Part shown: positions 1-12,544 of the stretch, piece after piece
Numbering within the stretch: the first letter of the stretch is position 1
Layout of the letters: every line of letters begins with the position of its first letter
Source of the DNA: Prevotellaceae bacterium
Lineage (GTDB): Bacteria; Bacteroidota; Bacteroidia; Bacteroidales; Bacteroidaceae
Direction of reading: 5' to 3'
NCBI GenBank assembly: GCA_022508685.1
Contig: JAFLUS010000024.1
Coordinates: 1 to 12,544 of the forward strand
DNA length: 12,544 nucleotides
Notes under the pieces: model-generated
Seen by the model: the letters and a program-made list of their open reading frames with translations, nothing else
Database searches by the model: none
What the model was told of the DNA's origin: nothing
Position numbers and translations under genes: made by a program

Positions 1-30
1 CCTGCAGGCGCAAAAATCAACCTGCCGTAA
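1..30 (+). CDS. Probable 3' end of an upstream gene (partial)
   Basis: Frame 1 from the first base reads PAGAKINLP and then stops at TAA (28-30). This stop lies 25 bases before a strong terminator hairpin, as expected for the end of a + strand gene that begins outside the window. Only nine codons are visible, so no function can be given. The other + frames run open across the terminator or stop inside it, which makes them less attractive. The call rests on position only and could be wrong. Confidence 0.3.
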   Translation, partial: PAGAKINLP

Positions 31-55
31 CGTCGCACCATACTTGTATAGAAAA

Positions 56-106
56 GAAACCCTCGCTGTGCAGATAGCAATTCTGACGCAGCGAGGGGTT
101 CTTTTT
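56..106 (+). terminator. Rho-independent terminator, possibly bidirectional
   Basis: The left arm ACCCTCGCTG (59-68) pairs with CAGCGAGGG (89-97) over nine perfect base pairs. After one A/G mismatch, three more pairs follow (56-58 with 99-101). The loop is 20 bases and a T-run follows at 102-106. The complementary strand also carries a T-rich tail after the stem (bases 51-59 are A-rich on +), so it may work in both directions. It separates the upstream gene from the riboswitch leader. Confidence 0.78.
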
Positions 107-195
107 GAAATGAAGAGTTGTAGTTGTTCTTCAAATATGATGATTAGTAGATGTCAAAACCGATTTGTGCGATTGAAAAAAATGTGTGGAAAATG

Positions 196-226
196 TTTTG
201 CGCATTGAAAATTTTGCGTACCTTTG
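196..226 (+). promoter_or_regulatory. Bacteroidetes-type promoter of the B12 operon
   Basis: A TTTTG at 196-200 (the -33 element) lies 18 bases before TACCTTTG at 219-226. The latter matches the Bacteroidetes -7 consensus TAnnTTTG exactly. The implied transcription start is near 232-234. That is exactly where the first paired strand of the riboswitch begins, so promoter and aptamer positions support each other. The start site itself is inferred. Confidence 0.65.
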
Positions 227-232
227 CCGCCG

Positions 233-427
233 TAATGGTATTTCCGATTGCGAGGAGTCGCGATGAGGCGTGTTCACGCTCAGGAAATCAAAAGGGAATC
301 CGGTGAAAATCCGGAACAGTACCCGCTGCTGTAAGTCCTATACCAAAAATCGTTTGCATCATGTCATTGAAACTTCGGTTTTGAGAAGGCGCATTCGGAT
401 TGGGACAAGTCAGAAGACCTGCCATTG
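233..427 (+). promoter_or_regulatory. Cobalamin (B12) riboswitch aptamer
   Basis: This leader RNA binds adenosyl- or other cobalamins and turns down the downstream genes when B12 is plentiful. The conserved core is present: AAAGGGAATCCGGTG, then a CCGG stem partner, then CCGCTGCTGTAAGT (291-336). The B12 box ACAAGTCAGAAGACCTGCC is at 405-423. The closing helix P1 can be drawn as AATGG (234-238) with CCATT (422-426). A hairpin of seven pairs (247-253 with 258-264, loop GGAG) and a GCGT/ACGC hairpin near 268-279 lie in the 5' part. The first gene downstream is a BtuB-type transporter, the classic target. The variable region 337-404 is about 65 bases, which is ordinary for this class. Ligand preference cannot be read from the sequence. 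Confidence 0.94.
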
Positions 428-542
428 CCGTAAAAATAGATGAAAGCCTGCGGGACTATGGGCTGCAACTATGCTTCTCGATGTGGAGGAGCCTGTTTTG
501 CTATGATTATCTGTCGGAGTCGATGCTTCGCATAGGTGACAT

Positions 543-586
543 TCCCGTTGGCGTACTGTCTGTTGGTGCGTAAACGGGATTTTTTT
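543..586 (+). terminator. Candidate expression-platform terminator of the riboswitch
   Basis: TCCCGTT (543-549) pairs with AACGGGA (573-579) around a 23-base loop, and seven T's follow at once (580-586). It ends 24 bases before the BtuB start, where a transcriptional riboswitch would place its terminator. A short competing pairing is possible: CGGGA (451-455) can pair with TCCCG (543-547), an outline of an antiterminator. Between the aptamer and this hairpin (428-542) there is also a seven-pair stem, GCTTCTC (473-479) with GAGGAGC (486-492). Translational control through a loop-loop contact is an alternative. Confidence 0.55.
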
Positions 587-610
587 AATTTATGCATCAC
601 TGACAGATAT

Positions 611-2605
611 ATGACGTTTCGAAAGATTTTATGTTTGATGGCTGTGTGGCCTGTCGGGTTGTTCGGCAGCGAACCTGCCGATACGCTGGGGCACCGGTTG
701 CAGGAAGTGACGGTGACGGCACAGCGGAAGGTGGCTGATGTAATTCCTGTGCAGACGTTGTCGGGCGAGGAGTTGCAGCGGTTGAGCAGCAACAGCGTTG
801 CCGACGCGTTGCGCTACTTTTCCGGTGTGCAGGTGAAGGACTATGGCGGTGTGGGCGGACTGAAGACGGTGAATATCCGTTCGATGGGTACGAACCACAC
901 GGGTGTGGTGTACGATGGTGTGGAACTGGGTAATGCGCAGAACGGACAGATTGACTTGGGGCAGTTTTCGCTCGACAATATCGCATCGATTTCGCTGTAC
1001 AACGGGCAGAAGAGTGCCATTCTGCAACCGGCAAAGGATTTTGGCAGTGCCGGCACGATTTATATGCAAACGCGGGTGCCGCATTTTGCTGACGGCGAAA
1101 CGTATCATGCACGTGCTGCCGTGCGTGCCGGGTCGTTCGACTTGCTCAATCCGTCGGCGTTGGTCGAACTGAAGTTGAGCGAGCGGACTACGGCGTCGCT
1201 GAGTACGGAGTGGGTGAATTCGAGCGGACGTTACCAATTCCGCTATCGCCGTGTAAATCCGGCGGGCGAGATTGCCTACGACACGACGGCGGTGAGAGAG
1301 AATGGCGATGTCAATGCCACGCGCATCGAGGCTGCGCTGCATGGCACGACGGGGGCAGGGACATGGACGGCTAAGGCGTATCAGTACAATTCTGAACGTG
1401 GCGTTCCGGGTGCGATTGTCAACAACGTGTGGCGCAGAGGTGAGCGGATTTGGGATACGAACTCGTTTGTGCAAGGTCGCTACATCGGATACTGCGGCAG
1501 ATGGACGACGCTGAACCATGTGAAATATGCGTTCTATCGCACGCATTATGTGAATAATGACGACAAGCAGGTCAAAATCGATAATCTGTACAAGCAGAAG
1601 GAAGTGTATGTGTCGTCGGCAAACGAAGTGGAGGTCTGCCCCTGTTGGCGCGTTGCCGTCGGTTGCGACGTGGTGTGGAATACGCTCGATGCAGATGTCT
1701 ATGGCTTTGCCCGTCCCGACAGGTTGTCCGGCTTTCTGTCTGCCGCCACTGCGCTTGACCTGCCGCGGTTCAAACTGCAAGCCAGTGCATTGGGCACGTT
1801 CGTGCACGACGAACTGAAGGGGCAGAAGGCTCCTTCCGACCAACGTGTCTGCACGCCGGCGGTCTGCGCATCCGTCCTGCCGTTTGCGAATGCCGATTTC
1901 TCTTGCCGTGCTTTCTGCAAGCAGTCGTTCCGCATGCCGACGTTCAACGACCTCTACTATGCCGACATGGGCAATGCGCAGTTGAACCCCGAACGGGTGA
2001 CGCAGTACAATGTCGGATTGCTCTACGACCATGCTGCTGCCGAACACTTCGTGGCAGCCCTTCGCGTCAGTGTGGATGCGTACTATAATAAGGTAAGCGA
2101 CAAGATTGTGGCTTACCCGAAGGGACAGCAGTTCAGATGGACGATGCTTAATCTCGGCAAAGTCGACATTCGCGGCATCGATGTCAGTACGTTGCTGACG
2201 ATGCACGTGGCGAAGCGCACCAACGTCACGTTGCGTGGGCAGTACACCTTCCAACGTGCCATTGACGTCACCGCTCCTTCGGACAATTATTATCGCCACC
2301 AGATACCCTACATTCCGCGACATTCGGGTGCGGCTGTCGTCAATCTGCAGTGTGGCGCATGGGCGTTCAACTATTCGTGGATTTATGTGGGCGAACGTTA
2401 CAATCAGCAAGAGAACATCCGATATAACTATACGCAGCCGTGGTACACGTCCGATGTGTCGGTCAGCCGAGATGTCAGGATTGGCACGACGGCGTTGCGC
2501 GGATTGCTCGAAGTGAACAACCTGCTCAATCAGGATTACGACGTGATTATCAACTATCCGATGCCCAAGCGCAACTATCGGTTTACACTCATGGTGGAAA
2601 TATGA
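611..2605 (+). CDS. btuB: BtuB-type TonB-dependent outer-membrane cobalamin transporter
   Basis: This is an outer-membrane 22-strand barrel that imports cobalamin (or related corrinoids) using TonB energy. The start at 611 gives 664 residues, close to the usual BtuB size, and begins with a signal peptide (MTFRKILCLMAVWPVGLFGS). An upstream in-frame ATG at 536 would lie before the leader terminator hairpin and add 25 residues that break the signal peptide, so it is rejected. A TonB-box-like EVTVTAQR is at residues 32-39. The plug spans about 42-155 with NIRSMGTNHTGVVYDGVEL. The rest reads as barrel strands and ends in FTLMVEI, a typical aromatic-rich last strand. There is no CarboxypepD_reg domain as in SusC proteins. 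It is the first gene after the B12 riboswitch and overlaps the next gene by ATGA (2602-2605). Specificity for B12 is inferred from the riboswitch and the BtuG neighbour. Confidence 0.93.
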   Translation: MTFRKILCLMAVWPVGLFGSEPADTLGHRLQEVTVTAQRKVADVIPVQTLSGEELQRLSSNSVADALRYFSGVQVKDYGGVGGLKTVNIRSMGTNHTGVVYDGVELGNAQNGQIDLGQFSLDNIASISLYNGQKSAILQPAKDFGSAGTIYMQTRVPHFADGETYHARAAVRAGSFDLLNPSALVELKLSERTTASLSTEWVNSSGRYQFRYRRVNPAGEIAYDTTAVRENGDVNATRIEAALHGTTGAGTWTAKAYQYNSERGVPGAIVNNVWRRGERIWDTNSFVQGRYIGYCGRWTTLNHVKYAFYRTHYVNNDDKQVKIDNLYKQKEVYVSSANEVEVCPCWRVAVGCDVVWNTLDADVYGFARPDRLSGFLSAATALDLPRFKLQASALGTFVHDELKGQKAPSDQRVCTPAVCASVLPFANADFSCRAFCKQSFRMPTFNDLYYADMGNAQLNPERVTQYNVGLLYDHAAAEHFVAALRVSVDAYYNKVSDKIVAYPKGQQFRWTMLNLGKVDIRGIDVSTLLTMHVAKRTNVTLRGQYTFQRAIDVTAPSDNYYRHQIPYIPRHSGAAVVNLQCGAWAFNYSWIYVGERYNQQENIRYNYTQPWYTSDVSVSRDVRIGTTALRGLLEVNNLLNQDYDVIINYPMPKRNYRFTLMVEI

Positions 2606-3753
2606 AACGAAAACGCTCTCCGCTCTATCTGCTGATGCTGTTGCTGCTCACAGCCTGTCGTCAGGATGAATTGGTCGTGCCGACGGAGTACGACGTGATT
2701 GCCGACAAGCCGTCGGCAGATACGCACGTCCGCGGATTTTATCTGCTGAATGAAGGCAACATGGGTTCCAACAAATGCACGTTGGATGCGTTCGACTATT
2801 TCACGGGGCTGTACGCACGCAACATCTATGCCGAACGCAATCCGCATGTAGTCAAGGAGTTGGGCGACGTCGGCAACGACATCGGCATTTATGGTTCGAA
2901 GTTGTACGTAGTCGTCAACTGTTCCCACAAGGTGGAGGTGCTGGATGCGCACAGCGGTCGGCGCATCGGACAAATCGACATACCGAACTGCCGCTACGTG
3001 CGTTTTCATCGCGGAAAAGCCTATGTCAGTTCCTATTTAGGACCGGTGCTCATCGACCCCGATGCGCCCAAAGGTGCCATTTATCAAATCGACACGCTGT
3101 CGCTGGCGGTGACGGCAAAAGTCATGGTGGGTTATCAGCCCGAGGAAATGGAGGTGGTCGATGACTACATGTATGTCGCCAACTCCGGCGGCTACCGCGC
3201 ACCGAACTACGACGAAACGGTTTCCGTCATTCAGATGGTGGACTTCAAGCAAGTGCAGCAGATACCGGTCGGCATCAATCTGCATCGGTTGAAGAAAGAC
3301 CGCTACAACAAATTGTGGGTGACGTCGCGTGGCGATTATCAGAACCGCCCGTCCCGCCTGTATGTCATGGAGAAGAAGCGCGGGACTCATCAGATGGTGG
3401 TGACCGACACGCTGCCCGTAGCCTGTTCCAACATGGCGTTCTTTGGCGATTCGCTCTACTATTATGCGACGGAATGGAACAACTACACGGCATCCAACGC
3501 GGTGAGTTACGGCATCATCAACGTCAGGACGAAGGAAATCGTGTCGACCCATTTCATCACCGACGGCACGGAGCAGGAAATCGCCGTTCCCTACGGCATT
3601 GCAATTCATCCGGAAACCGGCGACATTTTTGTTACCGATGCCAAGAACTATGTTTCATCGGGCACGCTGTATTGTTTCGACCGCCGTGGTCGGAAGAAAT
3701 GGAGTGTCCGCACCGGAGACATTCCGGCACATCTCACGTTTTTGCCCAAATGA
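2602..3753 (+). CDS. btuG: BtuG-type surface lipoprotein, beta-propeller cobalamin-binding protein
   Basis: Known BtuG proteins are seven-bladed, YncE/DUF5074-like propellers that sit on the outside of BtuB and bind B12 very tightly. This one has 383 residues, the normal size. The start at 2602 gives a lipoprotein signal, MKRKRSPLYLLMLLLLTAC, with lipobox LTAC (C19). The acidic CRQDE that follows fits a Bacteroidetes surface-export signal. The family opening GFYLLNEGNMGSN is at residues 45-57, and ELGDVGNDIGIYGSKLYVVVN follows from residue 86 (given as a family-like stretch, not a site map). Repeated blade motifs of the V.VIQM / GIAIHPETGDIFVTDA type continue to the C-terminus. Both flanking genes overlap by four bases (ATGA), so translation is probably coupled and stoichiometry fixed with BtuB. 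In-frame codons reach upstream to 2440 inside btuB, but that extension has no signal peptide. The role is assigned from family and position. Confidence 0.9.
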   Translation: MKRKRSPLYLLMLLLLTACRQDELVVPTEYDVIADKPSADTHVRGFYLLNEGNMGSNKCTLDAFDYFTGLYARNIYAERNPHVVKELGDVGNDIGIYGSKLYVVVNCSHKVEVLDAHSGRRIGQIDIPNCRYVRFHRGKAYVSSYLGPVLIDPDAPKGAIYQIDTLSLAVTAKVMVGYQPEEMEVVDDYMYVANSGGYRAPNYDETVSVIQMVDFKQVQQIPVGINLHRLKKDRYNKLWVTSRGDYQNRPSRLYVMEKKRGTHQMVVTDTLPVACSNMAFFGDSLYYYATEWNNYTASNAVSYGIINVRTKEIVSTHFITDGTEQEIAVPYGIAIHPETGDIFVTDAKNYVSSGTLYCFDRRGRKKWSVRTGDIPAHLTFLPK

Positions 3754-4937
3754 AGACATTGATATTGCTGCTTCTGGTGTTTGCCGCATCGTGTGCGAGC
3801 GACATTCCCCTCGTCAATGTAGGCATTGACGATGCTTACTACATCCGCCGTATGCAGAAACTGGCTCTGCGTCCGGCGCTGACCGGTGCAGCCTATCAGT
3901 GGACGTGCAATGGCGAGGTCGTGGCACGTTCGCGCGACTATATCTTTCTGGCACAGACGGAAGGCACCTATCATCTTGCGTTTGACATCGTCGACAGCCA
4001 CACGCCGTACCACTGCGAAACGGTGGTGCACGTGCTGCACGAGGACATTGAGTACAGCCCGTACATCAGTGCCGTGTATGAATATTGTCCCGCTCCCGGG
4101 CAGTTTGTCAACGACATGCCGCAGTACGAAGACGGCGACACCTATGCCGACATCCTGCGGAAGGTGGAAGAGTCCATCGTCGGCACGAACGACGTGATGG
4201 TGTCGCTCGGCGGATATGGCGGATACATTACGTTCGGGTTCGACCACACGGTCGTCAACGTGCCGGGCGAAAAGGATTTCCGCATTTGGGGAAACTGCTT
4301 CTACGAATCGCTCGACCCTCTGCGCAAGGGCGGTTCGGCAGAACCGGGCATCGTCATGGTCAGTTATGACACCAACTGCAACGGGCAGCCCGACGATGAA
4401 TGGTACGAACTCGCCGGCAGCGAATACCATGCGCCGACCACCATGCACGGCTACGTCATCACCTATCATCGTCCCGACCCCGACCGCGACATCGTTGCCG
4501 ACCGCAACCATGGCCTGACCGACCTCTACTATATCCGTTGGACGGACAACAGGGGAGAGGAAGGGTACATGGCGAAGAACGCCTACCACAGCCAATCGTA
4601 TTATCCGAAATGGGTGACAGCCGACACGCTCATGTTCCAAGGCAGCCTGTTGGCACCCAACGGCGAGGATGTGTCGGGCACCGGTGCCTACTTCATCCTC
4701 TATAGTTATCCGTGGGGCTACGTCGACAATCATCCGAACGATGAAGCCGAGTTAAATTCGTTTGACATCTCGTGGGCGGTCGACCGCAACGGGCAGCCCG
4801 TCCGTCTGCAAGGCATCGACTTCGTCCGCGTCTATACGGGCGTGAACCAGTATTGCGGATGGATTGGCGAAACGTCTACGGAATTGTCGCGGGCACAGGA
4901 TTTACATATTATTGATAACCAAACGATTACACCATGA
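3750..4937 (+). CDS. PKD-like surface lipoprotein of the B12 operon
   Basis: The start at 3750 (ATGA overlap with btuG) gives 395 residues with a lipoprotein signal, MKTLILLLLVFAASC (C15; the lipobox AASC is a weaker match than in BtuG). A short PKD/Ig-like region (about residues 30-95) contains YQWTCNGEVV and GTYHLAFDIVDS. The main domain follows, with YEYCPAPGQFVNDMPQYEDG and, from about residue 145, GTNDVMVSLGGYGGYITFGF. At residues 207-218 sits DTNCNGQPDDEW, an acidic loop resembling an EF-hand/dockerin calcium loop. Proteins of this family accompany btuB-btuG in Bacteroidetes B12 loci. I infer a surface role in corrinoid capture or complex assembly. It could correspond to the cobamide-binding lipoprotein called BtuH, but I cannot establish that from sequence alone. 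A 177-base gap with repeats follows. Confidence 0.83.
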   Translation: MKTLILLLLVFAASCASDIPLVNVGIDDAYYIRRMQKLALRPALTGAAYQWTCNGEVVARSRDYIFLAQTEGTYHLAFDIVDSHTPYHCETVVHVLHEDIEYSPYISAVYEYCPAPGQFVNDMPQYEDGDTYADILRKVEESIVGTNDVMVSLGGYGGYITFGFDHTVVNVPGEKDFRIWGNCFYESLDPLRKGGSAEPGIVMVSYDTNCNGQPDDEWYELAGSEYHAPTTMHGYVITYHRPDPDRDIVADRNHGLTDLYYIRWTDNRGEEGYMAKNAYHSQSYYPKWVTADTLMFQGSLLAPNGEDVSGTGAYFILYSYPWGYVDNHPNDEAELNSFDISWAVDRNGQPVRLQGIDFVRVYTGVNQYCGWIGETSTELSRAQDLHIIDNQTITP

Positions 4938-4953
4938 CAGAAAAATGCCAAAA

Positions 4954-5063
4954 ACGCTTATGCATAAACCATTTCAGGCGTGTGCATAAACCTAAATACG
5001 CTTATGCATACGCCTAAAAACGTTTATGCGCACGCCAAAATACGTTTACGCATACGCCTGAAA
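4954..5063 (+). repeat. 22-bp imperfect tandem repeat array (five units)
   Basis: Units start at 4954, 4976, 4998, 5020 and 5042, exactly 22 bases apart. A decayed sixth start at 5064 begins ACCGCTT. The shared core is ACGCTTATGCATACGCC followed by an A-rich spacer (TAAAA, AAAAT, TGAAA). The centre TATGCATA is palindromic and varies to TGTGCATA, TATGCGCA and TACGCATA. The array fills most of the 177-base gap between genes 3 and 4, the only real gap in an otherwise overlapping operon. Because 22 is not a multiple of three, it does not encode a peptide repeat. Its function is unknown: possibilities are a phased protein-binding array, an RNA structure tuning the distal genes, or a selfish or relic repeat. 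Confidence 0.88.
4976..5015 (+). other. Stem-loop formed by repeat units 2 and 3
   Basis: AGGCGTGTGCATA (4976-4988) pairs with TATGCATACGCCT (5003-5015) over 13 base pairs with one G-U pair and a 14-base loop. Unit 2 can instead pair with the next unit: 4977-4991 with 5022-5036, 15 pairs including one wobble. The hairpins are followed by A's, not T's, so they do not look like terminators on the + strand. They could stabilise the upstream btuB-btuG mRNA or separate it from the distal pair. This is inferred from base pairing only. Confidence 0.6.
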
Positions 5064-5114
5064 ACCGCTTTTCGTCATCAAAATAATAACGATTAAACTC
5101 TGTAACAAAAAACG

Positions 5115-6899
5115 ATGAAAACACTCTGTACTTTCTTGCTGTGGACGGCAGCCATGCTGTCGCACGCACAGCCGCGAACGGCTTCCGACGGCGTCTATGT
5201 GCTGAATGAAGATTGGTTCGGTGTCAACAACAGCACCCTGAATTTCTGGAACCGGAAGGAGGGGACTATCGACTATCGCATCATCAAGGATGCCAATCGT
5301 CAGCCATCGTCGGGCAACGTCAATGCGTTGGGATGCACGGCGACCTATGCCCAGATTTATGGTGGCAAACTATATGCAATGTCGAAACAAGACCAAGATT
5401 CAGGCGAAAAATCATTCCAAGGCGGCCGCTTCGTCATCGTCAATCTTGACGACATGAAGGTGGAACACGGCTTCCGCACCATCAGCACGACGGCTTCGGG
5501 CGTTTCCTTTGCCGACGGGCGTGCCTGTCTGGTGGTTTCTCCCCACAAAGTGTATCTCGGTACGTCGAATGGCATCTACATCTACGATGCCGACCGACAG
5601 ACGATTTCAGCCACGCCTATCGAAGGGACGGAAAACGAGTTGGCAACCGGCGGAGAGTCTGCTGCCCAAGGCATGGGTGCACTCTACAACAACCAAATCG
5701 GCAACATGATTAGAGGTCAGGACTATGTGTTTGCCGTCAAGCAAGATTGCGGCATCTTGGTCATCGATGCGGTCGACGACCACGTCCTGACCGTCATTCC
5801 GGGCTGCTTCAGCGCCATGGTGCAGTCGGCAGACGGAGCGATATGGGCAGGCATGAATACGGCAACGGGCGTAGACGCCGACGGCAACCGGCTCGACCAT
5901 TATCCGTATGGTAGCAGTGCCGGCGAAGGCTGGAAGGGCAATGCCCTGCTGCGCATCGACCAATATTCGTTGGAAACGACGACGGTGGAACTGACTGCCG
6001 GCGGCATACCGCAGTCGTGGTATGCGTGGACGGCAGGTTCGTTTGCAGCCCATCCGTCGAGGAATGTGTTGTACTACGTCTATTCCGACCCTTCGCTCGG
6101 GCAGTCGGGTTGGTTCTCTGCCGGTGCGCTATATCGGTATGACATCGACGCAGACGTGCAGGAGAAAGTCTGCGACATTTCCGACTACGGCATCCATTTC
6201 TATAGTTCCGGCGTACGGGTCAATCCGGTGGACGAACTGCTCTACGGCTTCTACTATTCGGGCGGAATTGCCAATGATGCATGGTCGTATTTCACGATTG
6301 AAGACGACGGCAGCGACGAACTGACGACCGACAACGAACGTCCGCTGATTGCCAACTATTGGTATCCTTCGTTGGTTGTCGTGCCCGACACCGAAGCGCC
6401 CGTGGTGCAGACGCCGGAGCGGCTGACGATAGATGGTGAAGCACTGACCATTGACTTGGCTGCATTGGTCGATGATGCCGACACGCCGAAGGCATCTATC
6501 GTCAAGCAGATTACGAATGTGGCAGATGCCGACATCGTCCGTGCCTCGCTCGTGCGCGGCAACTTGCTCGTTGAAGGATTGAAAGCCGGACAGACGACGG
6601 TGACGGTAGCATACGATGCTGCCGGTCAGTTTGCTGAAGTGACGTTCGACGTCGACGTCGTGACACCTTCGGGCATCACTGCCACCGAAAGCGAAAAGGC
6701 TGCATTGCGATATGCGAACGGCAGTCTGTATGCCACGACCGCAGGACGACTGCAGGTGTACTCCGCTTCCGGCAACTTGCTGATGTCGGCTGCCGTCGTG
6801 CCTTCGACACCCATTTCCGTTGCTCATCTCACAGGCATCGTCATGGTAAAATATATGACAAATGAACAAACTTATTCTTACAAATTGATGTTAAAATGA
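5115..6899 (+). CDS. Secreted BtuG-like (DUF5074-type) propeller with T9SS-like C-terminal tail
   Basis: This protein has 594 residues. A type I signal peptide (MKTLCTFLLWTAAMLSHA, cut after A18) has no lipobox, unlike genes 2 and 3. The propeller begins DGVYVLNEDWFGVNNSTLNF, which mirrors the GFYLLNEGNMGSNKCTL opening of the BtuG gene in the same operon, so the two are probably paralogous. Blade-like stretches run to about residue 420. An Ig/cadherin-like module (about 424-517) starts DTEAPVVQTPERLTIDG and ends VTFDVDVV. The end (about 546-594), LQVYSASGNLLMSA through SYKLMLK, resembles a degenerate T9SS type-A sorting domain. The start is preceded by A-rich sequence (ACAAAAAACG) typical of this phylum. 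It overlaps the next gene by ATGA (6896-6899). I infer a surface-attached corrinoid-binding or accessory role; binding is unproven. Confidence 0.83.
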   Translation: MKTLCTFLLWTAAMLSHAQPRTASDGVYVLNEDWFGVNNSTLNFWNRKEGTIDYRIIKDANRQPSSGNVNALGCTATYAQIYGGKLYAMSKQDQDSGEKSFQGGRFVIVNLDDMKVEHGFRTISTTASGVSFADGRACLVVSPHKVYLGTSNGIYIYDADRQTISATPIEGTENELATGGESAAQGMGALYNNQIGNMIRGQDYVFAVKQDCGILVIDAVDDHVLTVIPGCFSAMVQSADGAIWAGMNTATGVDADGNRLDHYPYGSSAGEGWKGNALLRIDQYSLETTTVELTAGGIPQSWYAWTAGSFAAHPSRNVLYYVYSDPSLGQSGWFSAGALYRYDIDADVQEKVCDISDYGIHFYSSGVRVNPVDELLYGFYYSGGIANDAWSYFTIEDDGSDELTTDNERPLIANYWYPSLVVVPDTEAPVVQTPERLTIDGEALTIDLAALVDDADTPKASIVKQITNVADADIVRASLVRGNLLVEGLKAGQTTVTVAYDAAGQFAEVTFDVDVVTPSGITATESEKAALRYANGSLYATTAGRLQVYSASGNLLMSAAVVPSTPISVAHLTGIVMVKYMTNEQTYSYKLMLK

Positions 6900-9856
6900 A
6901 AAAACAATGTTTGAAAACTGCCATTGCAGTAATGGCATTGGGAACGGCAACGTTCCACGCATGGGCTGACGAAGTGTCTAAAGGGACATTGAGCCTGTAT
7001 TCAGTCAGCGACGCATCTGACAAGTTCTGCAAAGTGTCCGGATTGGATGTGCCGGAAACCGCATCGGTCGCCGATGTGCCGCACGAAGGGAAATACGGAA
7101 GCAATATCTATCCGGTGACATGGGGCGAACGTGTGTACATGACTTCATGTATGCAGGGAGCGACTGCCGAAAACTTCTTCACCATTACCGACAATCAGTT
7201 GGTGCAGGTGGCACAGGCGAGTCTGGGCGTGGATAATCCGGGACATCATGTGCTGCCGCTGACCGACGACGGCGGTTTCGTATCGTCCTTTCGTCATCTC
7301 TACCAATACGCAGTGAACGATGCGGAGGTGACGCTGACTGAAGTGGCCGACGGCGCGTTCGGGCATCTTGTAGTCTTTGACGGGAAATTGTTCGTTCCCT
7401 ATGCGGAAAGTCCGTCAAATTCATATAGTTATGCGCAGATGAAGTCTGTCAAAGTCTACGACGTGGAGCATCTCGACGAAGTACAAACCATTGATTGTGC
7501 GGCGTTGATAGACGACGGATATGCCATTAACAAAGCCGTGCTTGCCCTTGACGGGAAGATTTACTTGGGCGTGCTGGCGTGTGATTATTCGCACTATTCC
7601 GACCCACAGGCATCGTACATGCTGCGTCTTGACCCTGCGGACATGTCGGTGTCGCGCATCGACTTCCCCGAAGGCATATCGGGCAACATCACCAACATCA
7701 TGAGTTTCGATGCCGCTCCGCTGATTGCCTCCACCGTGACGCCCGCGCTGTACTGGGTCGGCGGCGTTACGGAAGGGTGGAGCGTGGACTACCACATCTA
7801 CCGCTACAATTTGGTGACGGGCGAGACCGACATGATTGTCGACCGATGGGAGGGTGCAAACGATGGGTGCGCCATCTATAAAGGCTCGTTCATCGAATCG
7901 CCGGAAAGCGGTGTGCTGTATCAGGGCGTCGGCAACTATTACGATGCCAAACTCTATAGTTGGAATCCACAGGCACCGGAGGAAACGACGATGTATCCCG
8001 AGGTGAAAAGTCTTGGCGGTTCCATTGCATTCTGCTTCGACCGCTATGTGGCGCCGTCGAGCATCGCCATGCCTGTCAAGGCAGAGATGCGCCCGAATGA
8101 TACGATGGAACTGACGGCAACGCTGAACGAAGATGCTAACGTCACAGGCATCATCTGGACGAGTTCCAATCCGGAAGTGGCGTGGGTAGACATGACGGGA
8201 AAGGTGTCTGCCGTAGGCGAAGGTGAAGCCGTGGTGACGGCAACGAGCATTGCCAATCCACGATTGACGGCAACGTGCCGTGTATCGGTGGGAAAGACGG
8301 TGACGATGTCGCGTGGAGAGCAGTCGGTCACTATCGAAGGCGATGGCTGGAATTTGCGCAATCTGCCCTACAACGAGAACGAAGGGAAGATGGGCTACGA
8401 ATCCGATGTGCGCAACTGGCACACGGTGAAGTTGTATCCGGCAACGGAAGGTAACAAAGTGCAGGTGAACATTTCCAAACTCAATCTGTGTGGCTACGAC
8501 ATGAATGCGATGAGTCCGTCAATGGTGGAACATCTGAAAGACTGGCAAACGAAATTCTATATTTACAACGGTGCTGCCGATATTGAGTTTAAGAACTTCT
8601 ACACTGGCGTGATTGACTACGAAAACAGCCATTTCGACGACTGCCTGTATGAATGGCAATATGACAACAATCGTGCGGAAGAGGGTGAAGTATATCGCTC
8701 TACGGCAGACGATGGTGCGCTGACGATTATGTTCTGGCACGGCATTTGGGGATACTACAATGGTGATGTGCAGACGGATTCAGAATACGGATTTACGGCA
8801 ACCATTGCCGAAGTGGCACCGACGGAGATGACGGCCATTGGCAGCAAAGCCGACCGCAAGGCAACGTGGGTGACGAGTACGCCTACGGCAACGAATGTGC
8901 CTGTGCTCGATTTTGTGGTAAAGACCGACGGCGCCCTCCATGCGGCAGCCTTGACGGGCGTGACGATTGACCTCAAAGGACACGCGGAGAATATTCAGTC
9001 GCTGCACTTGATGTCCTACGGACTCGATGTGAAGAACAGCGAAGGCGTGGAAGTGGCAACGATAGCATCTGTCGATAATGCAGAAACCTGCACGTTTGTG
9101 CCCGAACAACTGCTGTTGCAGGACGGCCGTAACCGCTTTGCCGTTCTTGCCGATTTACGCGACGACTTGCCCGACTTGAGCGATGCGACCATCAAACTTG
9201 CCGGTGTGACGACCGACGATGTCAATCTCGCAGTCGACAACGCCGACCCGGAAGCATCCGTCGTTGTGCGTACATGGTATTGGTTTGCCGAAGGTACGAA
9301 CGAAGTGCTCATCGGTACAAATCCCATTCTGTTCAGCGACAGCAAGGGACTTGATGCCAACTACGACACGACTGCCGGCAGCGTTACCTTCGTTCCGCGT
9401 ATGGCTGACGCAAAAATCAGAATGACCATTGACGAACGTCCCGACCTTGCTCCGTCTGACAACCTGCTGCTGTATAGCGGTAGCGGCAGTGCCGACGACA
9501 GGTTGGTAGAAACTTTCAAATATAACTCGAAAACGAGCCTGTTCCCTTATCAATATATTTCGGAAAGCGAAGATGGCTGCATTACTTTCAGTTTCGCTCC
9601 GCAATCTGAAGCCGCAGATAAAGAACAGAAAGCCGGATGGCGCATCTTGTTGGAGGCAGTGATTGCCGACGGCATCGACGACAATCTCCAAACGGACATC
9701 AATGTCTGCCGCCCCGTTGATGTGTACGACCTCAAAGGTCTGCTGCTGCGCAAGAACATTCGCTATGCAGATGCCTTCACCGCACTTCCGGCAGGAATAT
9801 ACATTGTCAATCAGGGTTCTGTTAGCCGCAAGATAGTTGTCAAGTCAGCAGAATGA
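6896..9856 (+). CDS. Large multidomain secreted protein: propeller, BIG2, duplicated CUB-like modules, T9SS type-A tail
   Basis: This protein has 986 residues with a signal peptide (MKKQCLKTAIAVMALGTATFHAWA, cut after A24). Residues about 30-385 look like another beta-propeller, with repeated VFDGKLFVPYA / ALDGKIYLGVLA blades. Residues about 395-465 are a bacterial Ig-like group 2 (BIG2) domain: IIWTSSNPEVAWVDMTGKV and AVGEGEAVVTATS. A CUB-like module (about 468-640) contains FYIYNGAA and DDGALTIMFWHG. A stretch at 642-785 resembles the N-terminal associated domain of BNR-repeat sialidases. A second CUB-like module (about 795-930) contains NLLLYSGSGSADD and EDGCITFSF. The tail (941-986), VYDLKGLLLRKN to SRKIVVKSAE with LPAGIYIV, is a good T9SS type-A sorting domain. 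No catalytic motif is evident. It is the last gene of the B12 operon, directly before the terminator. Its task is unknown; surface adhesion or corrinoid capture is inferred from context. Confidence 0.83.
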   Translation: MKKQCLKTAIAVMALGTATFHAWADEVSKGTLSLYSVSDASDKFCKVSGLDVPETASVADVPHEGKYGSNIYPVTWGERVYMTSCMQGATAENFFTITDNQLVQVAQASLGVDNPGHHVLPLTDDGGFVSSFRHLYQYAVNDAEVTLTEVADGAFGHLVVFDGKLFVPYAESPSNSYSYAQMKSVKVYDVEHLDEVQTIDCAALIDDGYAINKAVLALDGKIYLGVLACDYSHYSDPQASYMLRLDPADMSVSRIDFPEGISGNITNIMSFDAAPLIASTVTPALYWVGGVTEGWSVDYHIYRYNLVTGETDMIVDRWEGANDGCAIYKGSFIESPESGVLYQGVGNYYDAKLYSWNPQAPEETTMYPEVKSLGGSIAFCFDRYVAPSSIAMPVKAEMRPNDTMELTATLNEDANVTGIIWTSSNPEVAWVDMTGKVSAVGEGEAVVTATSIANPRLTATCRVSVGKTVTMSRGEQSVTIEGDGWNLRNLPYNENEGKMGYESDVRNWHTVKLYPATEGNKVQVNISKLNLCGYDMNAMSPSMVEHLKDWQTKFYIYNGAADIEFKNFYTGVIDYENSHFDDCLYEWQYDNNRAEEGEVYRSTADDGALTIMFWHGIWGYYNGDVQTDSEYGFTATIAEVAPTEMTAIGSKADRKATWVTSTPTATNVPVLDFVVKTDGALHAAALTGVTIDLKGHAENIQSLHLMSYGLDVKNSEGVEVATIASVDNAETCTFVPEQLLLQDGRNRFAVLADLRDDLPDLSDATIKLAGVTTDDVNLAVDNADPEASVVVRTWYWFAEGTNEVLIGTNPILFSDSKGLDANYDTTAGSVTFVPRMADAKIRMTIDERPDLAPSDNLLLYSGSGSADDRLVETFKYNSKTSLFPYQYISESEDGCITFSFAPQSEAADKEQKAGWRILLEAVIADGIDDNLQTDINVCRPVDVYDLKGLLLRKNIRYADAFTALPAGIYIVNQGSVSRKIVVKSAE

Positions 9857-9891
9857 CACATACACATATCTGCCCGCAGACAATGTATGAA

Positions 9892-9920
9892 GGAGGACCG
9901 TCGTGAGACGCTCCTCTTTT
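9892..9920 (+). terminator. Rho-independent terminator of the B12 operon
   Basis: GGAGGACCGTC (9892-9902) folds with GACGCTCCTCT (9907-9917) around a GTGA loop. Ten pairs (one G-T at the base) are broken by one C-C mismatch, and TTTT follows. It lies 35 bases after the last stop codon, so the operon ends here and the two-component genes are a separate unit. Confidence 0.85.
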
Positions 9921-10017
9921 ATATTTTCCACGAATTCCTGTCGGACATCAACCAAGAAGTGCTGCTTTGTTGGTCATGGATTTATGTTAAGTTTTTATTA
10001 AATTTTTAATTTAAGGG

Positions 10018-10047
10018 TCTGTGAATGGCGGATTATTTGTAGATTTG
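10018..10047 (+). promoter_or_regulatory. Candidate promoter of the two-component operon
   Basis: TAGATTTG at 10040-10047 matches the Bacteroidetes -7 consensus TAnnTTTG. The -33 position holds TCTG (10018-10021) after an 18-base spacer, which is only a partial match to TTTG. AT-rich sequence (about 9979-10014) lies just upstream. The gap 9857-10081 otherwise contains only the operon terminator. The start site would be near 10054, leaving a short leader. Confidence 0.5.
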
Positions 10048-10081
10048 CAGTCGAGAACATCGTAATAAAAGATATTTGTAG

Positions 10082-10771
10082 ATGAATAAGAAACTCTTGG
10101 TTGTCGATGATGAAGACACGTTGTGCGAGGCGCTGCGTTTCAATCTTGAAGCCGAAGGTTATGAGGTTGACACCGCAGGCAGTGCCGAGGAGGTGCTGGC
10201 TATGGATGTGTCAGGCTATGACTTGTTGCTCCTTGACATTATGATGGGAGAGATTTCCGGCATCCAACTTGCAAAAATTCTTAAAGCCAATCCCGCCACC
10301 GCATCAATCCCTATCATTTTCTGCACGGCAAAGGACACGGAGGACGATATGATTGACGGACTTGAACTTGGTGCAGACGATTACATCGTGAAGCCTTATT
10401 CCTTGCGAAATGTATTTGCAAGGGTAAAGACGGTTCTTCGTCGGACTGCAGGAGATACACCCAAAGTCCAACACGATGACGGCAAGGTAACATACGAAGG
10501 GTTGACCATCATTCCGTCGAGCAAACACTGCATAGTTGACGGCGAAGAGGTAAAACTCCCGAAGAAGGAATTTGAGGTGCTTCTCAAACTGGTCAGTAAT
10601 GTTGGGCGGGTGTTTACTCGTGAAGAACTTCTGCAAGAGATTTGGCGCAACGATGTCGTTGTCCTTGACAGGGTTGTAGATGTCAACATCACCCGCATTC
10701 GTCAGAAGATAGGAAAGTACGGAAGTCTGATAAAGGCACGCTCTGGCTATGGTTATGGATTCATGGGTTAA
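10082..10771 (+). CDS. OmpR-family two-component response regulator
   Basis: This is a DNA-binding transcription regulator switched by phosphorylation. It has 229 residues, the normal length. The receiver domain (1-120) has the acidic pair D9/D10 (LLVVDDED), phospho-acceptor D52 (LLLLDIMMG), T82 (IIFCTAKD) and K104 (DDYIVKPYS). A winged-helix DNA-binding domain (about 132-229) has LPKKEFEVLLKLVSNVGRVF and ends VDVNITRIRQKIG with RSGYGYGFMG. It overlaps the histidine kinase gene by 23 bases, so the two are certainly a pair. It resembles the RprY/PhoB-like regulators common in Bacteroidetes, but the exact orthologue cannot be fixed by eye. Targets are unknown; the phosphate transporter gene downstream is one candidate. 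Confidence 0.93.
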   Translation: MNKKLLVVDDEDTLCEALRFNLEAEGYEVDTAGSAEEVLAMDVSGYDLLLLDIMMGEISGIQLAKILKANPATASIPIIFCTAKDTEDDMIDGLELGADDYIVKPYSLRNVFARVKTVLRRTAGDTPKVQHDDGKVTYEGLTIIPSSKHCIVDGEEVKLPKKEFEVLLKLVSNVGRVFTREELLQEIWRNDVVVLDRVVDVNITRIRQKIGKYGSLIKARSGYGYGFMG

Positions 10772-12206
10772 ACTTTCCTACGCTCAAAGGCTCTTTATAT
10801 GGCTGCTGGGCTATTCTCTGCTGCTTGTAGGTTGCTTTGCAGCATTCCAATACCAAAGGGAGAAGGATTTCAAAGCCGCCGAACTGAATGCCCAACTACA
10901 ACTTATCAATTCCTACATATCGCAGGAATTGGAGTCGGGAGTTGCCCCCGATTCCATACGGCTAAACCGAACAGGGTATTTTGAAGACATAAGGGTAAGC
11001 ATCATCGACCATGAGGGCGAGGTGGTCTATGATAATTCCCTTGACCGTCTGCCCGGCTCCAATCATTTGAATAGAAAGGAGATAGCCGAAGCCAAGAAAT
11101 TTGGCAGAGGGTTTACGCAACGTCGTCACAGCGAAAGCACAGGCGACACCTATTTCTACTCTGCTACCCTTACCGACAACGGAAAGATAATAAGGACGGC
11201 AGTGCCATACTCGGTTTCACTCAACCATTTGCTTGAAGCCGACTATACTTTCCTTTGGATGATGGGCGGCATCGCATTGGTGTTCTGTCTGTTGGGATTT
11301 TTCGCCACTCGGCGTGTCGGACTGCACATTTCTCGTCTTAACGCATTTGCCGCTTCCGCAGAGCGTGGCGAAAGAATAACAGATACCGAACCATTCCCAC
11401 ATGATGAACTGGGCGACATTTCCAATCATATCGTCAGATTGTATGCCCGACTGCAAAAGGCGATTGCCGACCGTGACCGTGAACACGCATCCGCCATGCA
11501 TCAGCAGCAAGAGAAGGAGCGGATAAAGAAACAATTGACCAACAACATCAACCACGAACTGAAAACCCCTGTTGCGTCCATTCAGGTCTGTTTGGAAACA
11601 ATGCTCGCACATGAGGATATGAGCGACGAGAAAAGACATGAATTTCTTGAAAGGAGCCTTTCCCATACCGATAGATTGAAAAGACTCTTGTCTGACGTTT
11701 CGCTGATTACACGAATGGATGATGGTGGTATGGTCATCAACAGGGAACCTCTTAACCTCACAGAACTGATTTCTTCTGTAGTGGAGGATTGTAAGCCGTT
11801 GGCAACGAGGAAAGGAATGCATATTGCAAATGACATTCGTGCTGAAATTCCTGTCAATGGCAATGAATTGTTTTTACTCTCCGTATTCCACAATCTGATT
11901 GAGAATGCGGTGGCTTACAGCGGAGGCACACGCATTGCCCTGAAAATTGATTCGATTGACGCGAAGAGAGTGGTCATTTCTGTGTCCGATGATGGGTGTG
12001 GAGTGAGCGAAGAGCATCTTTCGCATATTTTCGAGCGCTTCTATCGTATAGACAAAGGCCGTTCCAGAGCATCGGGTGGCACCGGACTCGGACTGGCTAT
12101 CGTCAAGAACGCTGTGCATTTGCATGGTGGGACAATATCCGTTGCCAATCAGGTTTCAGGCGGACTGGTCTTCACCATTGTTTTTCCGTTAAATCATCCC
12201 CAATAA
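10749..12206 (+). CDS. Membrane sensor histidine kinase, partner of the OmpR-type regulator
   Basis: This has 485 residues. TM1 is about residues 15-33 (LFIWLLGYSLLLVGCFAAF), a periplasmic sensor region about 34-165, and TM2 about 168-190 (FLWMMGGIALVFCLLGFFA). A HAMP-like linker runs about 190-240, with a charged helical stretch (about 240-262). The HisKA domain has phospho-acceptor H269 in NNINHELKTPVASIQ. The ATPase domain has the N box HNLIENA (381-387), G1 box SDDGCGV (413-419), F box IFERFYRI and G2 box GGTGLGLAIVKN (from 443). All catalytic motifs are intact. The start at 10749 lies inside the regulator gene; ATG at 10755 is an equally possible start and would remove two residues. It resembles RprX/PhoR-like kinases. 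The signal sensed is unknown. Confidence 0.92.
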   Translation: MVMDSWVKLSYAQRLFIWLLGYSLLLVGCFAAFQYQREKDFKAAELNAQLQLINSYISQELESGVAPDSIRLNRTGYFEDIRVSIIDHEGEVVYDNSLDRLPGSNHLNRKEIAEAKKFGRGFTQRRHSESTGDTYFYSATLTDNGKIIRTAVPYSVSLNHLLEADYTFLWMMGGIALVFCLLGFFATRRVGLHISRLNAFAASAERGERITDTEPFPHDELGDISNHIVRLYARLQKAIADRDREHASAMHQQQEKERIKKQLTNNINHELKTPVASIQVCLETMLAHEDMSDEKRHEFLERSLSHTDRLKRLLSDVSLITRMDDGGMVINREPLNLTELISSVVEDCKPLATRKGMHIANDIRAEIPVNGNELFLLSVFHNLIENAVAYSGGTRIALKIDSIDAKRVVISVSDDGCGVSEEHLSHIFERFYRIDKGRSRASGGTGLGLAIVKNAVHLHGGTISVANQVSGGLVFTIVFPLNHPQ

Positions 12207-12240
12207 AGCATACGTTTTTTCTTTAACAGATACTTAAAGA

Positions 12241-12278
12241 TTTTGAAATGTCTTTGAAATAAAATAGGGCGACCTTTG
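12241..12278 (+). promoter_or_regulatory. Weak candidate promoter before the phosphate transporter gene
   Basis: GACCTTTG (12271-12278) resembles the TAnnTTTG element but lacks the T. TTTTG (12241-12245) and CTTTG (12252-12256) lie upstream at spacings of 25 and 14, neither ideal. The gap 12207-12318 is AT-rich and shows no clear terminator, so read-through from the kinase gene is also possible. Confidence 0.25.
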
Positions 12279-12318
12279 CCGTAGAAATTAATTTATAAAC
12301 TTTTAATTTTTACGACAA

Positions 12319-12544
12319 ATGGACATTCTATTTCTTTGTGTAATTATCTTCCTTTTCCTGCTGGCGGTGTTTGACCTGTCGGTAGGAGTCAGCAATGACG
12401 CTGTCAATTTCCTTAATTCAGCCATTGGTTCAAAGGCTGCTACTTTCCGACGTGTGCTGACAGTCGCTGCTATCGGCGTATTTATCGGTGCAGCCATGAG
12501 CAACGGCATGATGGACATTGCCAGACATGGCATATTCCGTCCCG
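12319..12544 (+). CDS. PiT-family inorganic phosphate transporter (5' part only)
   Basis: The ATG at 12319 opens a frame that runs to the window edge (75 codons). The protein begins MDILFLCVIIFLFLLAVFD, a membrane segment, followed by LSVGVSNDAVNFLNSAIGSK. This is the PiT signature, in which the conserved ND and N line the ion path. AIGVFIGAAMSNGMMDIAR continues with the second membrane segment. PiT proteins carry phosphate across the inner membrane with a cation. The start is preceded by an AT-rich leader (TTTTTACGACAA) without a Shine-Dalgarno. The gene begins 112 bases after the kinase gene, which hints at a link between this two-component system and phosphate, but that is only positional. 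The rest of the gene is outside the window. Confidence 0.88.
   Translation, partial: MDILFLCVIIFLFLLAVFDLSVGVSNDAVNFLNSAIGSKAATFRRVLTVAAIGVFIGAAMSNGMMDIARHGIFRP

Follow-up and report, generated by a model that had tools for sequence, protein, structure and literature searches.

The window analyzed here, meaning the whole stretch of 12,544 nt under study, comes from a Prevotellaceae bacterium (GCA_022508685.1, contig JAFLUS010000024.1, positions 1 to 12,544, forward strand) and carries a run of five forward-strand genes behind a cobalamin riboswitch. These are btuB, btuG and btuH, followed by two genes, here termed gene 4 and gene 5, whose predicted products combine signal-peptide-like starts with C-termini resembling the sorting domains of the type IX secretion system (T9SS). 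The riboswitch aptamer (RF00174, 233..427) scores 93.2 bits, well over the gathering score (31.5), and lies just outside the span covered by an earlier reading of this DNA from its letters alone (the sequence-only reading), which had named a riboswitch, btuB, btuG and a single end terminator. All of these are present. Directly upstream, at 197..226, is the sole match in the window, the operon included, to TTTG...TAnnTTTG, which we take to be the Bacteroidetes promoter consensus (0.13 matches expected from shuffled sequences), and a terminator-like hairpin followed by a T-run occupies the leader at 543..586 (stem 543-579; -20.6 kcal/mol, z -4.3). The TonB-dependent B12 receptor gene btuB (611..2605) matches Plug at 63 bits and TIGR01779 at 106 bits, the latter under its equivalog cut-off of 599.7, while btuG (2593..3753) encodes a DUF5074 propeller lipoprotein (57.6 bits; lipobox LTAC by eye) that matches BtuG entries in the Protein Data Bank (PDB) with E-values down to 5.8e-38. 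The operon ends in a terminator-like hairpin and T-rich stretch at 9893..9930 (stem 9893-9916; -13.9 kcal/mol, z -4.3). A stricter terminator pattern scan found 8 sites in the window versus 13.2 in shuffles, and missed both the leader and the operon-end hairpins.

The third gene (3747..4937) had been described as encoding a PKD-like lipoprotein. A lipobox (AASC, by eye) and a PKD_3 match of 26.6 bits agree with this description, but the label is too narrow: over residues 104-388 the protein matches the BtuH domain of 8blw_B (E 5.2e-77) and 7biz_A (E 9.3e-44), and it is BtuH. The 8blw structure is titled as BtuB1 with BtuG1; BtuG1 has a fused BtuH domain, and 7BIZ is BtuH2 (PMC10404256). BtuH2 bears N-terminal PKD domains (PMC8941943), whereas the window protein has a single PKD_3 match. 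Both BtuG and BtuH from the window are therefore, by their PDB matches, homologs of solved B12 binders.

Gene 4 (5115..6899) encodes a signal-peptide-like N-terminus, read by eye, in which neither inspection nor a regular expression finds a lipobox, followed by a BtuK-like propeller (~5184-6386) with a DUF5074 domain over its gathering score, an Ig-like domain (~6402-6659) and a T9SS tail (~6696-6896) that falls in a strand-rich C-terminal domain modeled with confidence in the predicted structure. The propeller is nearest to BtuK1 in both sequence and fold, with a fold rank ahead of BtuG and BtuK2. BtuK1 (Bacteroides thetaiotaomicron BT_1486, PDB 9s6c) is a B12-binding lipoprotein, while BtuK2 does not bind B12 (PMC12751083). 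The resemblance to BtuK1 strengthens, without proving, the supposition that gene 4 binds corrinoids; unlike BtuK1, its product carries the Ig-like domain and a T9SS tail in place of a lipid anchor.

The TIGR04183 sorting-domain model assigns 21.1 bits (E 2.3e-4) to the gene 4 tail and 16.3 bits (E 7.2e-3) to that of gene 5, both under its curated cut-off of 23 bits; in a scan of the whole genome the gene 4 tail appears at 19.6 bits and the gene 5 tail is not among the matches. Pfam Por_Secre_tail matches neither tail at E<=1. A separate lineage profile was therefore built with the window tails excluded, using C-terminal sequences of 15 further proteins from related loci. This profile scores gene 4 at 21.9 bits and gene 5 at 26.2 bits, against at most 7.5 bits in 30 BtuG/BtuH C-termini, selected from those available, and at most 8.8 bits in 400 shuffles. 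Both tails are above chance by this measure, and the observation made in the sequence-only reading holds. Among relatives, TIGR04183 at E<=0.01 matches 20 of 30 homologs of gene 4, counting that of the window, and 13 of 15 neighbouring proteins versus none of the 30 BtuG/BtuH controls. When ten gene-4 homologs were taken singly, five exceeded the cut-off (L029, L032, L034, L036 and L039), three scored 15.9-17 bits, and L023 and L028 had no match at E<=0.1.

The set of 30 homologs leaves out L031, L036 and L058, in whose genomes the translocon protein SprA was not found, the SprA-negative L059, L060 and L062, four with cut 3' ends (L037, L038, L044 and L045), and L047 and L063-L066, which are the window again or extra pieces of genomes that already have an entry (L063, for instance, is the second homolog of genome G503). 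The 15 neighbouring proteins leave out L025, L026, L040 and L042 (open 3' ends), and include two rows whose genomes have no found SprA (L031 and L036) and one protein encoded upstream of btuB (L034). The lipobox expression flagged the tailed L050 and L031 ambiguously and missed L062 (MLYTSCSKDDD, by eye). Compared with the PDB, a profile of 15 gene-4-family tails retrieves first the 75-residue chains 8glk_D (E 3.1e-12) and 8glj_D (E 1.4e-10). The latter is labeled as a Por secretion system sorting domain and the former as Endonuclease I, which we read as likewise a sorting domain; lower in the list, mirolase and gingipain R2 chains appear among other proteins that include unrelated propellers.

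Gene 5 (6896..9856), which overlaps gene 4 by 4 bases, is organized as a signal-peptide-like N-terminus without a lipobox (by eye), a propeller-like N-terminal part (~6938-7915), a Big_2 domain (8084-8266; Pfam, 35.8 bits), a part common to large open frames, and a short T9SS-like tail (~9701-9844). Its N-terminal part aligns remotely with the gene-4 family (hhalign 95.2%, E 2.5e-8, 18% identity), and no Pfam DUF5074 match is obtained at E<=1. A PDB profile search gives seven matches at E<=1, all in the Big_2 region at residues ~382-464, and it is again the Big_2 part alone that resembles proteins of the related loci described below, although gene 5 occupies the slot of a large tailed protein in those loci. 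Near-full-length relatives are few: only four others (P0122-P0125) among 7,994 candidates scored, and none besides gene 5 itself in 399 family genomes, which yielded only seven partial matches. Its C-terminal half resembles part of open frames of 1,730-2,337 residues in seven other family genomes (L076-L082). From these comparisons, gene 5 would be a rarer protein styled like gene 4, with weaker evidence and much less certainty, and whether it serves as a B12 catcher is about evenly balanced.

The machinery that such tails would require is encoded in the same genome, where SprA, PorU and PorM/GldM score 2704, 997 and 555 bits, respectively, each above its curated cut-off. TIGR04183 at E<=1 finds matches in 13 of 14 control genomes and over-cut-off matches in one of 14; therefore, only hits over the cut-off are meaningful in whole-genome scans. 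The window's genome has eleven other such tails, one of them reaching the cut-off only together with in-frame neighbours. The SprA model TIGR04189 matched none of the 14 control genomes. Among sampled genomes, SprA exceeds its cut-off in 277 of 295 from the order and 267 of 349 from the family, and gene 4 is matched at E<=1e-20 in 18 and 16 of these, respectively; some of the sampled order genomes appear identical to named ones. SprA accompanies gene 4 in 18/18 order genomes and 12/16 family genomes (10/10 in the family for matches above 250 bits), the family hits without SprA being G325, G326, G350 and G352. As a statistical proof, this co-occurrence was rejected: for matches above 250 bits, Fisher p is 1.0 in the order (7 matches) and 0.125 in the family (10 matches).

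A scan of the named species genomes, using two peptide patterns drawn from an alignment of gene 4, further found the gene in at least 24 loci. They derive from Muribaculaceae, Coprobacter secundus, Mariniphaga, Tannerella, Paludibacteraceae, other Bacteroidales and Bacteroidetes bins, and Empedobacter stercoris (Flavobacteriales). Three groups are near-duplicates (L033/L043, L038/L042 and L037/L044/L045), so the counts are not independent, and since the loci were chosen by gene 4, they show where gene 4 lives and not how frequent the arrangement is. In 21 of the 24, gene 4 is the next gene after btuH; in L033 and L043 it lies in the same run, apart from btuH, and L041 is too short to tell. A cobalamin riboswitch precedes btuB in 18 of the 20 loci that have upstream sequence (L032 and L034 being those without). 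The promoter motif is located immediately before the riboswitch in 7 of 18 loci, counting the window, and within the operon in one (L025). SprA was found in the genomes of 22 of the 24 loci, those of L031 and L036 being the remainder. That many genomes place the distal genes in the same run as btuBGH, after a riboswitch, lends indirect support to B12 control of these genes. The sequence-only reading had proposed T9SS-exported corrinoid binders as an addition made by this lineage; operon linkage, tails and likeness to BtuK1 speak for such an addition, but its restriction to the lineage does not survive the spread of the loci through Bacteroidales and into Flavobacteriales. Two findings that would have refuted that reading did not arise: T9SS genes are present in the genome, and the C-termini, although their sub-threshold curated scores would alone count against it, score well above controls with the lineage profile.

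In several of these loci, known B12-binder families appear, from their domain matches, to occur as riboswitch-linked T9SS cargo. In 10 of 24 loci, a second BtuH-like domain occurs in a protein encoded downstream of gene 4; the one in L024 matches 8blw_B at 3.3e-42 and ends in a Por_Secre_tail of 48.8 bits (cut-off 27). L030 encodes, within one riboswitch operon (11721-14276), both a BtuH (58.6% identity to that of the window) with a Por_Secre_tail of 35.5 bits and a DUF4465 protein (103 bits), which has an fn3 domain and a Por_Secre_tail of 28.5 bits. In L033 (4765-5952), a 395-residue BtuH (8blw_B, 5.9e-71) has a signal peptide and a C-terminus resembling 7pzj_A (6.4e-6) and 8glj_D (9.3e-3), and it occupies the position held by lipoprotein BtuH in other loci; the BtuH of L043 (4767-5954) likewise has a signal peptide and a T9SS-like tail and no lipobox.

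The best argument that the tail replaces a lipid anchor comes from the converse case. Two SprA-negative genomes, G326 (one contig, 99% complete) and G325 (three contigs, 99%), encode the gene-4 homolog as a lipoprotein with nothing beyond the Ig-like domain. The order riboswitch-btuB-btuG-btuH-gene 4 in G326 is that of the window, and G325 has further genes between btuH and the homolog. These two lipoproteins score 3.6 and 0.0 with the tail profile, whereas 26 of 30 homologs from SprA-positive genomes score above every control (the exceptions being L051, L061, L052 and L054), giving a Fisher p of 0.03, uncorrected for relatedness. Three genomes in which SprA was not found nevertheless have homologs that retain the tail (L031, L036 and L058), the tail scores being 37.6 bits for L031, 48.4 bits for L036 and 26.8 bits for the homolog of G350, a genome 89% complete; these tailed homologs are presumed to reflect gaps in draft genomes. 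In the SprA-negative G352, a gene-4-like gene is broken by one in-frame stop (L060 / L072).

Together, these observations make it quite probable that the window encodes a riboswitch-controlled operon for corrinoid capture at the outer surface, served by two export routes. Scarcity of corrinoid would keep the leader terminator from forming, and all five genes would then be made, presumably from one transcript. BtuB and its BtuG lid would constitute the transporter, and BtuH a lipid-anchored surface catcher, while the BtuK-type propeller of gene 4, and possibly gene 5, would cross the outer membrane via the SprA translocon and have their C-terminal domains removed by PorU. The resulting proteins would stay on the surface or be released, adding a further tier of catchers from which corrinoid passes to BtuBG. 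Of this picture, the riboswitch, the gene order with its conservation, the family of gene 4, the T9SS machinery, the homology of the tails and the alternation of lipoprotein and tail are computed results, while co-transcription, export, corrinoid binding by genes 4 and 5 and transfer to BtuBG are inferences. Several results weigh against this interpretation: both window tails fall short of the curated threshold, the predicted model of gene 5 (pLDDT 40.9) is too poor for a fold search, and the fold score of gene 4 against BtuK2, a non-binder, nearly equals that against BtuK1.

This last point is pertinent to the alternative that the B12 operon encodes, in genes 4 and 5, T9SS surface proteins that bind no corrinoid and act instead as scaffolds, adhesins or vesicle-promoting factors. 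We regard this as unlikely, as the nearest fold to gene 4 is nevertheless a B12 binder, ranking ahead of BtuG and BtuK2, and the T9SS-tailed operon proteins of relatives hold BtuH and DUF4465 domains, both from B12-binding families. Alternatively, the tails could be degenerate or not export signals at all, leaving the proteins periplasmic or released by another path. The sub-threshold curated scores, the missing Pfam match and the 10 of 30 gene-4 homologs that escape the curated model would all fit such a scenario, yet it appears improbable in view of the separate profile with its clean controls, the confidently modeled C-terminal domain of gene 4, the match of family tails to solved T9SS domains, and the absence of a tail from the two intact SprA-negative homologs. 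That genes 4 and 5 form a separate transcription unit outside riboswitch control is very improbable, for although a 177-nt spacer with a strong hairpin (4938..5114; hairpin 4945-5075, -38.5 kcal/mol, z -4.7) precedes gene 4 and operon 1 of B. thetaiotaomicron has an active internal promoter (PMC12751083), the window has no promoter motif inside the operon, no T-run follows the hairpin, and btuH and gene 4 are tightly spaced in 19 relatives (3-76 nt, median 13; L033, L034, L041, L043 and L046 left out of the count). The spacer holds TTATGCATA-like units, for which a poorly specified pattern search of the window's own genome gave no match.

The preferred reading, of lipoprotein and T9SS export combined in one capture operon, extends what has been described. 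The BtuBGH systems of gut Bacteroides (PMC6143338, PMC8941943, PMC10404256) share with the window the riboswitch, BtuB, the BtuG lid and the BtuH catcher, but use lipoproteins, whereas the window adds T9SS-tailed proteins with the signal peptide and C-terminal sorting domain, here putative, of type A cargo. The BtuJ/DUF4465 family of B12 binders (PMC12751083, PMC13398666) also occurs in the same operon type in L030; that copy has fn3 and a T9SS tail, in contrast to the lipoproteins and periplasmic signals of the DUF4465 account in the excerpted PMC13398666. The sequence-only reading knew of no described role for T9SS cargo in B12 uptake, and none was found in the literature searched, nor was a micronutrient-riboswitch set of T9SS cargo (subscription papers and preprints lay outside the search). 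The main texts of PMC12751083, PMC10404256, PMC8941943, PMC13398666 and PMC6143338 contain no term for the T9SS. Searches joining the T9SS with "B12-binding" found nothing, and those adding cobalamin and "sorting domain" nothing related in the partial texts retrieved; type IX secretion and the cobalamin riboswitch are mentioned apart in one such text, and the available portion of PMC12578637, on outer-membrane assembly, makes no connection between the T9SS and B12 binders. The one paper found to name DUF5074, PMC9431301, lists it in the Elizabethkingia anophelis vesicle proteome as an uncharacterised protein, placed together with a member of the YncE family.

In Porphyromonas gingivalis, T9SS cargo is attached to A-LPS, a form of lipopolysaccharide (LPS), and packed into vesicles (PMC12704123), and vesicles also carry BtuJ (PMC12751083). 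On this basis, we tentatively suggest, as a rather doubtful generalization by analogy, that the surface anchor of corrinoid-capture proteins may be an exchangeable module across Bacteroidota: proteins of the BtuK, BtuH and BtuJ types would be lipid-anchored in the absence of the T9SS and could be T9SS-anchored in its presence. The T9SS forms would perhaps be attached to LPS and packed into vesicles, making up a cobalophore-like pool that resembles by convergence the vesicles with lipoprotein BtuJ in B. thetaiotaomicron. While described surface B12 capture in Bacteroides rests on lipoproteins, the operons described here provide a set of likely T9SS cargo that is conserved and marked by a riboswitch, which gives tailed DUF5074 proteins a likely role. 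As one protein family appears to use two export routes at the same operon position, a clean test is possible. If true, the reach of the T9SS would extend from enzymes and adhesins to micronutrient capture. The capture of heme by gingipain adhesin domains offers a parallel.

Several further features of these loci were observed. The window's genome has a second cobalamin riboswitch (85.4 bits) on contig C43 (L069), before genes for a TonB receptor, a DUF5074 lipoprotein, a BtuF-like Peripla_BP_2 protein and a BtuC-like FecCD protein; inner-membrane corrinoid transport is therefore probably encoded there. In the window itself, a response regulator and a sensor histidine kinase (10082-12206) directly follow the operon. 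L027 (699-10922) contains two tandem riboswitch-btuB-btuG units, the second then followed by btuH and gene 4, and in L029 (10001-12847) and L032 (5484-9269) the gene-4 homologs reach 948 and 1261 residues, respectively, with extra sequence before the T9SS tail. Finally, the Tannerella locus L034 (1191-5255) encodes a second gene-4-like protein, of 1354 residues, upstream of btuB.
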